From the NCBI GenBank assembly GCA_902514765.1, contig CABXSA010000005.1, forward strand, positions 1-45,917: a DNA stretch of 45,917 nt, read 5' to 3'. Position 1 is the stretch's first letter. Every line of letters begins with the position of its first letter. The translations under genes and the position numbers were made by a program. Positions 27,685 to 33,561 of the stretch are shown in pieces. The notes beneath the pieces were generated by a model. That model saw nothing but the letters and a program-made list of their open reading frames with translations. It was not told where the DNA came from and ran no database searches. The DNA comes from an uncultured SAR86 cluster bacterium. GTDB lineage: Bacteria > Pseudomonadota > Gammaproteobacteria > Magnimaribacterales > AG-339-G14.

Positions 27685-28878
27685 TTAAGAATTGTAGGCT
27701 TCAAAAAGACCAGTCGCTCCCATACCTCCACCGACACACATGGTGACGATGCCATACTTTCCATCTCTTCTGTTCAACTCTCTGGCTACGTGTCCTACTT
27801 GTCTAGAACCTGTCATGCCGAAGGGATGTCCTATAGAAATAGAGCCACCATTTACATTAAGCTTTTCGGTTGGTAGACCAAGCTTGTCTCTTATATAAAC
27901 AACTTGAGAAGCGAATGCTTCATTAAGCTCCCATAGGTCAATGTCTTCCATCTTCAGGTTGGCAGCTTTTAGAAGCTTAGGTATTGAATAAACAGGGCCA
28001 ATTCCCATTTCATCTGGCTGACAGCCAACTACTGTAAAACCTCTAAAATAAAGTTTTGGAGTTAAGCCCAATTCTTTAGCTTTTTCTTCACTCATAACAA
28101 GAGTGACTGATGCACCATCTGAAAGTTGCGAAGAGTTTCCAGCCGTTACTGAGCCGTTTTCAGGATCAAAAACTGGTTTCAAAGAAGAAAGGCCATCAAT
28201 GGTTGTTTCTGGGCGGTTGCAGTCATCACGATCTACAGTAACTTCAACGTCTTTTTCTTCTCCAGACTCTTTATTTACCAACTTCATAATAGTGTCCATT
28301 GGAACAATTTCATCGTCGTAATAGCCTGCTTCTTGAGCTGCAGCTGTTCGCTGTTGACTGGATAAAGCATATTCGTCTTGAGCTTCTCTAGTCACGTTAT
28401 AACGCTTAGCTACGCATTCTGCAGTTTGTCCCATTGCATGATAGATTCCTGGTACATCAGCTGCCAATTTATCATTTACATACATATGCATATTTGTATT
28501 TCCTTGCGTGGTGGATATTGACTCAACACCACCAGCTATGATGCAGTCTGAAAAACCACTTTGAACTTGAGTCGCAGCCATAGCGACTGTTTGTAAACCA
28601 GAAGAACAATATCTATTTACAGTTGTTCCTCCTACTTCAATTGGTAATTTAGACAATACTGCAACATTCCTTGCAATATTGTGTCCTTGAGCTCCTTCAG
28701 GAGCACCACAACCAAGAATCATATCCTCTACCATTGAAGGATCTAATCCAGGATTTCTTTCTAGAAGAGCATTAACTAAGTGCGCTGTCATATCATCAGC
28801 ACGTGTTTGATTGAATCCCCCTCTGAAAGATTTAGCTAATCCAGTACGGACGCTATCAACAATTACTACATTTCTCAT
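27685..28878 (-). CDS. Acetyl-CoA C-acyltransferase (thiolase)
   Basis: 397-residue thiolase with Cys91 in NRYCSSGLQT as the acyl-enzyme nucleophile, His351 in GHPFGMTG and Cys381 in MCVGGGMGATG as the acid/base pair. The length and the CSSGLQTVAMAA and HPFGMTGSRQ forms fit FadA-like beta-oxidation thiolases or acetyl-CoA acetyltransferases; the two cannot be separated here. No fadB neighbour. ATG 28878 has AGGAG five bases upstream, one of the clearer ribosome sites in the window. TATAAT at 28911-28906 is a likely -10. Confidence 0.93.
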   Translation of the reverse strand: MRNVVIVDSVRTGLAKSFRGGFNQTRADDMTAHLVNALLERNPGLDPSMVEDMILGCGAPEGAQGHNIARNVAVLSKLPIEVGGTTVNRYCSSGLQTVAMAATQVQSGFSDCIIAGGVESISTTQGNTNMHMYVNDKLAADVPGIYHAMGQTAECVAKRYNVTREAQDEYALSSQQRTAAAQEAGYYDDEIVPMDTIMKLVNKESGEEKDVEVTVDRDDCNRPETTIDGLSSLKPVFDPENGSVTAGNSSQLSDGASVTLVMSEEKAKELGLTPKLYFRGFTVVGCQPDEMGIGPVYSIPKLLKAANLKMEDIDLWELNEAFASQVVYIRDKLGLPTEKLNVNGGSISIGHPFGMTGSRQVGHVARELNRRDGKYGIVTMCVGGGMGATGLFEAYNS

Positions 28879-28905
28879 AAAATCTCCTATTTTTGTAGAA
28901 CAATG

Positions 28906-28911
28906 ATTATA
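28906..28911 (-). promoter_or_regulatory. Candidate -10 of the thiolase gene
   Basis: Perfect TATAAT on the minus strand, 27 bases upstream of the ATG; no convincing -35 is seen at 16-18 bases. The AGGAG at 28888-28884 follows. Confidence 0.35.
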
Positions 28912-28936
28912 AAGAGTAATTTTGTTTATTACTAAT

Positions 28937-28970
28937 AAAAAAAACCCCTACAAAAGCAGGGGTTTTTTTT
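28937..28970 (-). terminator. Intrinsic terminator after the TonB-dependent receptor gene
   Basis: Inverted repeat AAAACCCCT / AGGGGTTTT with an eight-base loop, flanked by runs of eight A and eight T. Read on the minus strand it ends the receptor transcript 15 bases after its stop. The symmetric A and T runs mean it could work in both directions. Stem limits 28937-28949 and 28958-28970. Confidence 0.88.
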
Positions 28971-28985
28971 GGTTAAGAGTGATTT

Positions 28986-31900
28986 TTAGAAACCAATTCC
29001 AAAAGTCATTCCAAAAGATCTTGGCTCTCTAACCCATACAGAAGCTGTATGACCTACAGAAGAGTTACCAACAGCGGTTCCAGTAATATTTCTGTCATCG
29101 GTAAGGTTTTGTGCCCAAAATCTTAAGTTCCAGTCACCATCAGTTGGAATCACAGAAAGTGAGAAGTTCCACTCATCCCACGCAGGGATTTTAGATGTTT
29201 CGATATTGAAAATACTTGAGTAGCGCTCACTTTGGTAGTAGTAATCCAATCTAGGAGTAACTTCTAAGTTGTTTGTTTGGAAAGTGTAAGCAAGACCCAT
29301 GGATAATGTCATGTCTGAAAAAGGCATTTCATTTCCAGTTAGGTTTTGTTGCAGACCAGAACTTAGCCACTTACCAGTAGCAGTAGCAGTTCCTAAACAA
29401 ACTTCATTAGCACCAATTGTAAGAGCATTAGCACCGCCTGCTGCTCCAAAATCAGTCATTGCTTTGAATAACTTACAAACACCACCAGTTTGAATAGCTG
29501 CACCAGTACCTCTAATTACTACTGAAGGTAGTAAAGTTCCATCAGGTCCAGCAGTACCAGTAGCATTAGCAACTGGAGAATAAACTTGGATACTTGAAGC
29601 TGTTCCACCACCAGCAGCTGGTAAACATGTGTTTGGTCCACCAACAGAAGTCATAAAGTGACATACACCACCCAAGTTTCCGTATCCTTCGGCAGCGGAG
29701 CTCATTTCGAAAGGAACGACGTTAACAAGATCAAGTGCAGTAATTGCAGTTCCTGATCCACAGTCACTTGCACCATCACAAGTTAATCCAAACGCAATCT
29801 CGTTAGACCCTCTTAAGGCAGCAATTGCGTTTGCTCCTGCTGTAGCTTGAGCAGTTGCATCACCACCGCCTTGAGCAGAAGCTGCGACTGCAGCAGCTTG
29901 ACTTAATTGTACGTCAAGAATTTTTCCGTACATGTAACCAAAGGCATCTTTGTTTAATAAGAATGAGTTAGCAGTTTGGTTTTTAGCCACGTGCCAGTCT
30001 GTGTAACCATCCATACTTCCAGTGGAAGCTTGTTTTCTGTAATGACCGCCTAAGTCATGAGGATTGATCATTGAGAAATTACCCACTTCAGTACTTGAAT
30101 AACTGAACATCATGTTGAAAGTTAAACCTGGAACATCTGGGGGAGCTAATAAAAATTCAAGCTCAGCACCCATAGTTTCTAAAGGCATACCTGTATTAAT
30201 TGCAGTTTCATTCCTAATTACACCAACGTGATAATTAGTGAAGTCATAGTAATAAACTGAAGCGTTAGCAACAATTCCTTCTTCTGGAACTGAAGCTTTC
30301 ACACCGAATTCAAAAGCATCAACTTCTGTGCTTTCAAATGCAAAAGGAGTATTAGGGAATTGCGCCGCATTAAATGGCGGGTTAAATCCACCTCCTTTAA
30401 ATCCAATTGAATAACTTGCATAAAACAAAGTATCGTCATTGATTTGCCAATCCCAAACTAAACGACCCGTTGTTTGAGAGAAATCTTTAATTGGACTTAC
30501 ACCAAAAGAAGTATAGTCGGCGTTATTCGCAGGTAGTGTTCCAAAGATTTGTGCTCCATTTGTGTTACCTAGACCTGTTGCTGTAGGTTGTTGTCCTACT
30601 GTTTGACCGACAGTATTTGCTTGTTTTCCATCAGGTGCTTGAATTCCATTAGAAGTAAAACATGCTGTATTTTCTACACCAGTACTCATATTGTATGATC
30701 CCGGCGTACCGTTTGCCTGAATACCACAAGCATTAGCAGATGCTGTTGCCCATGAGGAAAGCAATGGTACTTTATAAAAAGTGGAATTCACCGAAACCGA
30801 CTTAGTATCTTCATTGTATCTAAAACCAGCAGTCAATTTGTGGTTATCAGCAACATCAAAGTAAAACTCTGTAAAGATTGCAGAAGAATCTAGCTTATAA
30901 GATTCAGTCGTATTATGGAAAAATTCAGTATACAAACCATCAATTCTGGAAACCATATCGTGAGCAACCGCAGCAGCAGTTGTAGTGACACCATTAGCTG
31001 CATACTGTGCAACAGCCGGAGCCATTGTTGCTAAGACAGCGTCTCCCGTAGCAGCTGTAACTGCAGCAGTAGTAGCATCAAGTCCTAAAGTAGACGCACA
31101 ATTCGTTGCGCCTAAAGCTGAACAAGTGATAAGTCCTCTAAAAGTTTGTCTAGTAGAGGTAGATATCGTAGAAGGTAAACTAAGAGCATTTAAAGTAATA
31201 CCAGATGCATAGACATCATAAAAAGAAGAAGTGTCATTGGAGATGTTAATACCACCAATTAAGAAATTAAACATACCATCTAAATCAGATGAATACTTAA
31301 TCTCGTAAACACTTCCTTTAGAGTCCTGTTTAGATGCATCACCAGAAACTGGTAAAATATGATTTCCTCTAACTCCCTCTCCATTTGGACAGAAAATACC
31401 TGCTTTAAACTGCTCTATAGCACATTGAGGTGTAATTTCTGAATTACTGTAACCCAGAGGTAAACCTTCGTTACCTTGAGCGGTTGAGTATATTGGAAGA
31501 TTTTGCACTGCAGCACTCCATCTCACGCCACTTCCTTCACTGGATAGTGAAGATGTATCACGATAAAACTGTCTTCTTTTATTATTGTAAGTGAACGTTA
31601 AAGTACCTTGATCGAAAGCTTCTTCAAAAATTAGCTGAGAATTAGATTCTTGAGCAAAGTGTCTAGGCGCAGCCCATGCATTTGCTTGGAAAAATTCTTG
31701 AGGAATTGTACCGCTATCCTGTGGAAGTCCAGTAGGTGCATAAGTTGCTGATCCGCCAGCAGTACCATTAGTTAAAGTACTGGGTACGTAAAAACCTAAA
31801 GTACCTCCTAATAAGCCTGGAAGAGTAGAACCATTAGACATTGGGTGGATTGGATTAAATGCTTGTTTACCACCCATAACACAACCTTGTACTAGGTTAG

Positions 31901-32684
31901 CACCAGTATCACAAAAGACACCATTTACTTGGGATCGGTTAGATTCCTCATCGAAAGCATTATGAATCAATGTGATCGTAGAAGAGTCTCTAGGTTCCCA
32001 TTGCAAACTAGCACGCCATTGATAAGATCCTCTGTCATCAAATTCACCAGTTGCTTTAGAATATAAATTTTTAGTTACTCCGTCTTTTTCAAAATTTGTA
32101 TAAGCAAGTCTTATACCTAGTTCATCACTGACAGGTACGTTAAAAATTGCCTCAATATTTTGGTAGTTGTCTGACCCTGCCTGAAGTCTAACACTTCCTT
32201 CAAATGCATCTAAGTCAGGTCTAGCAGTAATCAAGTTAATAACACCACCAGTTGAGTTACGACCAAATAGAGTACCTTGAGGTCCACGTAAAACCTCAAT
32301 ACGAGCCATATCTAAAAAGCCTTGCTCATTGGTAGACGTTGCTCCAATAGGCATACCATTGACATGAAGTTCAACACCGGCATCGGAACTTGCAGCTGTA
32401 GCAAAGTTAGCTACCCCACGAATTGAAAATCCACCGCCGTTAAACCCATCTGCGGAATAACCTAGGCCCGGAACTTGAAGTTGTAAATCACTTGCAAATT
32501 CCATTTGACGTTCTTCTAGAATGTCATCGGTAAATGCAGAAACCGCAATAGGAACGTCTTGCAGACTTTGCTCAGTTCTTTGCGCTGTAACGATTACTTC
32601 CTCAATTGTTGCTTGAGCGAATGCAGTAGTAGATAAAAGAGCTCCTACAATAAACGCTAAGCTTAGTTTAAAGAAATTACTCAT
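28986..32684 (-). CDS. TonB-dependent outer-membrane receptor, unusually large
   Basis: 1232 residues against 700-900 for most of the family. Signal peptide at about 1-24 ending AFAQA, then a TonB box EEVIVTAQR (28-36), a plug domain about 40-155 (LRGPQGTLFGRNSTGGVIN), and a beta barrel to the C-terminal Phe1232 (FGMTFGIGF). The extra length is Ala/Gly/Thr-rich sequence at about 515-575 and 925-1100, probably extracellular loops. All 14 cysteines fall in seven local pairs (258/268, 421/432, 521/529, 653/675, 969/975, 1008/1020, 1070/1096). Substrate unknown. Strong GGAGGA six bases before the ATG suggests high expression. Confidence 0.93.
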   Translation of the reverse strand: MSNFFKLSLAFIVGALLSTTAFAQATIEEVIVTAQRTEQSLQDVPIAVSAFTDDILEERQMEFASDLQLQVPGLGYSADGFNGGGFSIRGVANFATAASSDAGVELHVNGMPIGATSTNEQGFLDMARIEVLRGPQGTLFGRNSTGGVINLITARPDLDAFEGSVRLQAGSDNYQNIEAIFNVPVSDELGIRLAYTNFEKDGVTKNLYSKATGEFDDRGSYQWRASLQWEPRDSSTITLIHNAFDEESNRSQVNGVFCDTGANLVQGCVMGGKQAFNPIHPMSNGSTLPGLLGGTLGFYVPSTLTNGTAGGSATYAPTGLPQDSGTIPQEFFQANAWAAPRHFAQESNSQLIFEEAFDQGTLTFTYNNKRRQFYRDTSSLSSEGSGVRWSAAVQNLPIYSTAQGNEGLPLGYSNSEITPQCAIEQFKAGIFCPNGEGVRGNHILPVSGDASKQDSKGSVYEIKYSSDLDGMFNFLIGGINISNDTSSFYDVYASGITLNALSLPSTISTSTRQTFRGLITCSALGATNCASTLGLDATTAAVTAATGDAVLATMAPAVAQYAANGVTTTAAAVAHDMVSRIDGLYTEFFHNTTESYKLDSSAIFTEFYFDVADNHKLTAGFRYNEDTKSVSVNSTFYKVPLLSSWATASANACGIQANGTPGSYNMSTGVENTACFTSNGIQAPDGKQANTVGQTVGQQPTATGLGNTNGAQIFGTLPANNADYTSFGVSPIKDFSQTTGRLVWDWQINDDTLFYASYSIGFKGGGFNPPFNAAQFPNTPFAFESTEVDAFEFGVKASVPEEGIVANASVYYYDFTNYHVGVIRNETAINTGMPLETMGAELEFLLAPPDVPGLTFNMMFSYSSTEVGNFSMINPHDLGGHYRKQASTGSMDGYTDWHVAKNQTANSFLLNKDAFGYMYGKILDVQLSQAAAVAASAQGGGDATAQATAGANAIAALRGSNEIAFGLTCDGASDCGSGTAITALDLVNVVPFEMSSAAEGYGNLGGVCHFMTSVGGPNTCLPAAGGGTASSIQVYSPVANATGTAGPDGTLLPSVVIRGTGAAIQTGGVCKLFKAMTDFGAAGGANALTIGANEVCLGTATATGKWLSSGLQQNLTGNEMPFSDMTLSMGLAYTFQTNNLEVTPRLDYYYQSERYSSIFNIETSKIPAWDEWNFSLSVIPTDGDWNLRFWAQNLTDDRNITGTAVGNSSVGHTASVWVREPRSFGMTFGIGF

Positions 32685-32690
32685 TTAGAA

Positions 32691-32699
32691 TCCTCCCCT
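32691..32699 (-). promoter_or_regulatory. Strong ribosome binding site of the TonB receptor gene
   Basis: GGGGAGGA on the minus strand, six bases before ATG 32684. It is the best Shine-Dalgarno in the window, where many genes have none. Confidence 0.7.
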
Positions 32700-32736
32700 A
32701 ATGAGTTAAAAAAATTTTAATGTGAAGAATTCTGAT

Positions 32737-32777
32737 GCTTATAAACAATCTAAGTCTAATAACCTTTACTTATAAGC
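32737..32777. repeat. Spaced inverted repeat upstream of the TonB receptor gene
   Basis: GCTTATAA (32737-32744) and TTATAAGC (32770-32777) form a perfect 8-bp inverted repeat 25 bases apart, within the 223-base divergent spacer between the receptor and nth. It may bind a regulator; chance is possible in such AT-rich sequence. I see no other structure in this spacer, and promoters there are not clear. Confidence 0.3.
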
Positions 32778-32907
32778 TTAAGATTTCTCCCCCTATAGCA
32801 ATCGATAATACCTAATTTTGTAAGTACTGCAACCCTTTAAGGTCAAAAAACAATCATTTAAAGTAAACTAGTTTTATCAATTTATAACCAATTTAAAGCA
32901 AGATGAA

Positions 32908-33561
32908 ATGAATAAAAAAGAGAGGGCGCTATTTATAGAAACTAAATTGAATGAATTATTTCCAAATCCTAAAGCTCCTTTAGATCATTTGAATGCTTTT
33001 ACGTTTCTAATTGCCGTTCTTTTGAGTGCGCAGACTACTGATAAACGAGTTAACGTCGTGACAAAAGAACTATTCAAATTAGCAAAAGATCCAAAGAGTA
33101 TGTTTAATCTTGGAGAAAAAAAGGTCTATGAACACATAAAAACTTGTGGATTAGCTCCAAAAAAAGCTAGAGCAATAATAGAAACTTCTAAAATTTTAAT
33201 CGATAAACATCACGGAAAGGTGCCTAAGGAACTTGATGATCTTAAGGAGTTGCCAGGAGTTGGGCACAAAACAGCTTCTGTTGTGGTGAGTGAGTTTTAT
33301 GGAATACCTGCATTTCCTATAGATACTCATATACATCGTCTTGCACAGCGTTGGGGTCTTTCCAATGGAAAATCAGTAAAACAAACTGAAAAAGATTTAA
33401 AAAATATCTTTGATGAAATGAGTTGGCGTAATTTACATCTGCAGATAATTTTTTATGGGAGAGCATTTTGTACCGCAAGAGGCTGTGACGGAACAGTCTG
33501 TTTTATGTGTAAAAGTTTATATCCTAATAGAAAAAACAAAATTAAGACTTCAAAAGCTTAA
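32908..33561 (+). CDS. nth: Endonuclease III
   Basis: DNA glycosylase/AP lyase for oxidised pyrimidines. 217 residues with the helix-hairpin-helix LPGVGHKTASVV (catalytic Lys121) and Asp139 in FPIDTHIHRL. The C-terminal iron-sulfur site normally reads C-x6-C-x2-C-x5-C. Here the cysteines are at 188, 193, 198 and 201, so the spacing is changed although four cysteines remain. ATG at 32908; divergent from the TonB receptor. An alternative is a related HhH-GPD glycosylase, but the fit to Nth is good. Confidence 0.93.
   Translation: MNKKERALFIETKLNELFPNPKAPLDHLNAFTFLIAVLLSAQTTDKRVNVVTKELFKLAKDPKSMFNLGEKKVYEHIKTCGLAPKKARAIIETSKILIDKHHGKVPKELDDLKELPGVGHKTASVVVSEFYGIPAFPIDTHIHRLAQRWGLSNGKSVKQTEKDLKNIFDEMSWRNLHLQIIFYGRAFCTARGCDGTVCFMCKSLYPNRKNKIKTSKA

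Follow-up and report, generated by a model that had tools for sequence, protein, structure and literature searches.

A SAR86 TonB-dependent receptor with five enlarged extracellular loops, probably closed by seven local disulfides

The receptor gene and its domain layout

The DNA analysed here, a 45,917 nucleotide stretch from an uncultured SAR86 bacterium (hereafter the window), carries the gene of a 1232 residue TonB-dependent receptor, located between a divergent nth-like (endonuclease III) gene 223 bp away and a co-directional thiolase gene 107 bp away (Table 1). A T-tailed hairpin, likely an intrinsic terminator although absent from the list produced by a simple terminator scan, separates the receptor gene from the thiolase. 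A ribosome-binding site, AGGGGAGGA, ends 6 bases 5' of the ATG start codon, and a promoter scan gave matches no better than those in shuffled sequences. The neighbouring genes are nth-like, glyA-like, thiolase, thiL-like and pgpA-like, and a SusD-like lipoprotein gene, the companion expected of a SusC-type receptor, was not found beside the receptor. The isolated position ascribed to the gene in a preliminary description, made from the nucleotide sequence, is right as far as can be read from these flanks, given the divergent nth and the hairpin before the thiolase. The same description called the receptor oversized, which agrees with a median of 731 aa among 145 plug-bearing open reading frames (ORFs) sampled across the class, six of which reach at least 1100 aa and one at least 1200 aa.

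Both domains expected of such a protein were recognised by Pfam, with the plug (PF07715) scoring 53.2 bits against a cut-off of 23.9 over the full profile length, and the barrel (PF00593) scoring 47.6 bits against a cut-off of 27, its halves being found on either side of extracellular loop L9. This loop is inserted at a single point of the barrel profile, with profile positions 150-362 matched before it and 356-436 after it. The 22-strand topology was assigned by hand from the sequence, and its strand borders could be misplaced by a few residues; in favour of the assignment, mean amphipathicity is 3.6 in strands vs 1.3 in loop windows, and the periplasmic turns are 1-5 residues long. The extra sequence, originally described as low-complexity and rich in Ala, Gly and Thr at about residues 515-575 and 925-1100, has the composition claimed: residues 505-580 are 25% Ala and 20% Thr, and residues 885-1110 are 18% Ala and 16% Gly. 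AlphaFold2 models of residues 36-1232 (alignment of 8 sequences, pLDDT 26) and of the L9 region (alignment of 5 sequences, pLDDT 38, with weak hints of helices) are too low in confidence to trust, because just 5-8 input sequences were usable.

Table 1. Positions of the receptor gene, its parts and its flanking features in the window
Feature	Position	Strand	Basis or remarks
TonB-dependent receptor ORF, 1232 aa	28986..32684	minus	Pfam Plug 4.8e-14 and TonB_dep_Rec_b-barrel 2.9e-12; ATG start
Ribosome-binding site AGGGGAGGA	32691..32699	minus	Read from sequence
Putative signal peptide, residues 1-23 (MSNFFKLSLAFIVGALLSTTAFA)	32616..32684	minus	Hydrophobic core and AFA cleavage motif, read from sequence
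TonB-box-like segment, residues 27-36 (IEEVIVTAQR)	32577..32606	minus	Near-invariant across 13 orthologues; identified from sequence
Plug domain, residues 41-148	32241..32564	minus	PF07715 profile positions 2-107 of 107
22-strand barrel and loops, residues 161-1232, last residue Phe	28989..32204	minus	Hand strand assignment
Extracellular loop L3, residues 245-346	31647..31952	minus	Cys 258/268; second pair (~306/315) in one subclade
Extracellular loop L4, residues 379-457	31314..31550	minus	Cys 421/432; hand topology and alignment
Extracellular loop L5, residues 493-597, Ala/Thr-rich	30894..31208	minus	Cys 521/529; hand topology and alignment
Extracellular loop L6, residues 638-737	30474..30773	minus	Cys 653/675; hand topology and alignment
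Giant extracellular loop L9, residues 873-1122 (250 aa), Ala/Gly-rich	29319..30068	minus	Cys 969/975, 1008/1020, 1070/1096
Hairpin and T tail 3' of receptor gene, likely intrinsic terminator	28942..28965	minus	Read from sequence
nth-like (endonuclease III) gene, one slot edge	32908..33561	plus	Name from sequence; order-wide conservation beside slot
Thiolase gene, other slot edge	27685..28878	minus	Pfam Thiolase_N and Thiolase_C; 95-98% identity across genus

Cysteine pairs in the receptor and its relatives

The receptor contains 14 cysteines, arranged as seven consecutive close pairs with spacings, in order along the chain, of 10, 11, 8, 22, 6, 12 and 26 residues. Randomly placed cysteines match the summed spacing with a probability of 1.5e-5 and the largest spacing with a probability of 5e-6. 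In the hand topology, all 14 fall in five extracellular loops, with one pair in each of L3, L4, L5 and L6 and three in L9, where the choice of partners is assumed from proximity; the plug, barrel wall and periplasmic turns contain none.

Sixteen genomes of the genus, including that of the window, were compared. The receptor is complete in 12, with lengths of 1232-1359 aa, and cut by a contig end in one (G011). In a further genome (G001; loci L020 and L039), the orthologue is spread over two overlapping ORFs through a change of frame, representing either a pseudogene or an assembly error. Two genomes (G002 and G005) have no receptor at the orthologue level, an absence that may stem from assembly because the nth neighbour was not seen there either. 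The relatives identified belong to uncultured SAR86 bacteria, with an identity of 89% to the isolate AH-326-N13; a scan of viral contigs for further relatives found none. One contig titled as a Euryarchaeota MAG (NZLM01000067.1, L038) bears the SAR86 receptor locus and is probably misbinned.

Receptor identity among orthologues is 50-90%, vs 95-98% for the thiolase, a degree of conservation well above that of the adjacent thiL and pgpA. The orthologues of the genus keep the seven-pair plan, with six of the seven pairs retained almost throughout the 13 orthologues, and the cysteine columns of their alignment persist where conservation of the surrounding loop drops to 0.4-0.5. The exception is three loci (L013, L015 and L016) in which pair 969/975 has been lost and L3 has gained a pair near 306/315, in each case both members together.

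An even number of cysteines was found in the mature chain of every homologue first examined, and in 58 receptors of the wider family the extracellular loops hold 544 of the 548 mature cysteines. As these 58 sequences share ancestry, per-loop patterns rather than sequences were taken as the unit, and 17 of the 18 distinct patterns consist of even counts alone, an outcome with a chance of 1-4% for any single pattern. Pairs therefore come and go as units, with the loops changing fast around them. The sole non-even pattern arises in one paralogue group, in which the last pair, a C-x-x-C near strand 21, straddles the strand and, on the assigned topology, does not fit a simple loop placement. Placing the loop borders at strand ends instead of strand middles gives odd counts in 14 of 243 cells, every one of which is among adjoining loop and strand-edge cells. 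In a small set of control receptors (n = 16), those of 597-808 aa have 0-2 pairs and most of those of 948-1061 aa have 3-4. Outside SAR86, in one gammaproteobacterium (G169, L110), three receptors lie in tandem, with lengths of 1118-1184 aa and 4-5 close cysteine pairs apiece.

Chance placement of the cysteines is rejected by both the random-placement trials and the even loop counts across the family. Loop placement, even patterns and conservation of the pairs together mean that disulfide-closed surface loops are well supported, and oxidised pairs are the simplest reading of the sequence data. That the cysteines might instead act as metal ligands or redox sites is very improbable: although close cysteine pairs can bind metals, and C-x-x-C spacing occurs in a few relatives, the intra-pair spacing varies widely between orthologues (for example, 6-30 or 26-48 residues), conserved clusters of His, Asp and Cys were not seen around the pairs in the orthologue alignment, and the genome of the window encodes proteins of the DsbA (four loci) and DsbB (one locus) families.

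The preferred reading, which is considered highly probable, is a SAR86 TonB-dependent receptor with five enlarged loops closed by seven local disulfides and stapled into compact knobs. The protein is an outer-membrane receptor, most likely an importer of a scarce organic or metal-bearing ligand, with five of its eleven extracellular loops enlarged to 79-250 residues and each probably closed by local disulfides, three of the putative seven lying within L9. The bonds would be formed by the DsbA/DsbB system while the receptor passes through the periplasm, and would staple the large Ala/Gly-rich loops around the barrel mouth, allowing them to carry a fast-changing ligand-binding or shielding surface that is neither floppy nor easily cut. 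The even, loop-confined distribution of cysteines could also serve as a cheap marker of surface loops in SAR86 receptors.

A related proposal is that the loops mainly shield the barrel mouth against phage, bacteriocins and proteases, with transport needing little of them. This would suit their variable length between relatives and the faster change of the loops, in which dN is two to five times that of the barrel and plug when the window receptor is compared to one relative (L008), as well as the persistence of the cysteines. It is nevertheless judged unlikely, given that the seven-pair plan is kept genus-wide and that dN/dS nowhere exceeds 1 (pairwise values are 0.03-0.58 over all regions tested), and the closest relatives, among which an arms race should be visible, show only a small excess in the loops. 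Episodic positive selection in the loops is likewise not supported, though the power of the dN/dS test is low because synonymous sites are near saturation.

The preliminary description had identified all 14 cysteines as close pairs 6 to 26 residues apart, which was confirmed, random placement having a probability of about 5e-6. It had further regarded cysteines in the periplasm or barrel, or pairs unconserved in homologues, as evidence against its interpretation, and neither was observed. Of that interpretation as a whole, the disulfide-closed loops are well supported, whereas the diversifying selection suggested for the loops is not, dN/dS being below 0.6 in every region. The substrate-binding cap and the defence against phage or protease that it also put forward are candidate roles of the loops.

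The nth-thiolase interval and the question of substrate

SAR86 are among the most abundant bacteria of the surface ocean. Their transporter pool is dominated by TonB-dependent receptors (PMC11582366), which are highly expressed (PMC4410273) and often annotated as being of the iron-siderophore type (PMC11582366). Their substrates have mostly been surmised from annotation or from adjacent genes. All orthologues with flanks examined share the order nth, receptor, thiolase, thiL. The interval between nth and thiolase (28879-32907 in the window), here termed the slot, was surveyed in 38 further SAR86 loci (L181-L218), using nth as the anchor and a family profile for recognising receptors.

The slot is variably occupied. 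Genera g14, g15 and g20 of family f3, and family f4, have one receptor there, and genera g2 and g4 have one or two, whereas no profile-recognised receptor lies between nth and thiolase in g3 and several genera of families f2 and f3; in several genomes of the f2 genera g8 and g13, nth has other neighbours altogether. In one genome (G110, L198) the slot receptor is broken into ORFs of 150, 123 and 249 aa, which may reflect gene decay or faulty assembly. The slot receptors do not form one clade: constraining them together lowered the log-likelihood by 854 (p-AU 4e-61), in a test of a group defined by position whose result had already been suggested by an earlier tree. The tree needs at least four changes between the slot and elsewhere, and the closest kin of the clade containing the window receptor are receptors outside the slot. 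Among these outside kin are receptors next to a GH3 glycosidase with an MFS transporter, next to an amidohydrolase, and next to an S9 peptidase with a carboxylesterase. Genus g3 has a cluster of three related receptors (L056, L057 and L058), the first of which adjoins an S9 peptidase and a carboxylesterase.

The polyphyly of the slot receptors, and the position of the nearest kin outside, indicate that receptors have moved into or out of the slot. As the slot may be empty, single or double, and filled with non-orthologous receptors, its fixed neighbours say little about substrate, which is a warning against inferring substrates from neighbouring genes. The specific nutrient uptake role first proposed for the window receptor fits its membership of the TonB-dependent family, but the neighbours point to no substrate, persisting as they do without a receptor.

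This bears directly on the suggestion that fatty-acid or lipid-type substrates are imported for the adjacent thiolase. The co-directional thiolase is the next gene in each orthologue with this flank examined, and lipid use by SAR86 has been proposed from such neighbourhoods, as quoted in a passage of PMC8371827. However, in genus g3 and several genera of families f2 and f3 the thiolase stays beside nth without such a receptor, which weakens its candidacy as a functional partner; it also adjoins receptors of other clades, and the hairpin separates it from the receptor gene. Import for the thiolase is consequently regarded as improbable.

A more speculative possibility is that the slot acts as a fixed exchange site at which large stapled receptors from different clades are swapped, duplicated or lost, the receptor of the window's genus having settled there with a new 250-residue, three-disulfide L9 that came to serve as a separate ligand-capturing module. 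Were this tentative proposal true, such a site would let streamlined SAR86 genomes change their diet.

Comparison with known receptors

Among receptors of solved structure, CirA (the colicin I receptor) is the closest by sequence, together with that for pesticin, which might suggest a receptor for iron siderophores like CirA or FepA. These matches cover only the plug region, however, and none of the 19 NCBIfam siderophore, B12 and heme receptor models matched came near its cut-off, the best (TonB-siderophor) scoring 93 bits vs 223.5; a siderophore receptor of this type is accordingly thought unlikely. FepA and CirA, the catecholate receptors of Escherichia coli, belong to the same fold family and have one close pair each in the mature protein (509/516 and 435/439, respectively).

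FhuA, the ferrichrome receptor of E. coli, is a TonB-dependent receptor with a close cysteine pair at 351/362 (precursor numbering), the spacing of which, 11 residues, equals that of the L4 pair in the window receptor. The close cysteine pairs of FhuA are real disulfides. In a profile alignment that stops before the L9 insert, FhuA C362 aligns with C421 of the L4 pair, although FhuA has 747 aa and two pairs vs the 1232 aa and seven pairs found here. In ZnuD, the zinc receptor of Neisseria, two cysteines of L3 have been proposed to form a disulfide joining stretches of the loop (PMC2895646); ZnuD combines this one pair with His/Asp-rich stretches of a kind not seen in the window receptor.

SAR86 also has other receptors, 900-1200 aa long (genera g2, g3 and g4; families f2-f4), which belong to the same family by profile and all have close loop pairs, that in L3 being present almost throughout, as in the window receptor. 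They differ in having shorter chains and 2-6 pairs, the clade of the window's genus being the only one found with seven. Since FhuA, FepA and CirA also bear close pairs, the window receptor is an extreme variant and not a new kind, extending a known trend of loop cysteine pairs in smaller receptors.
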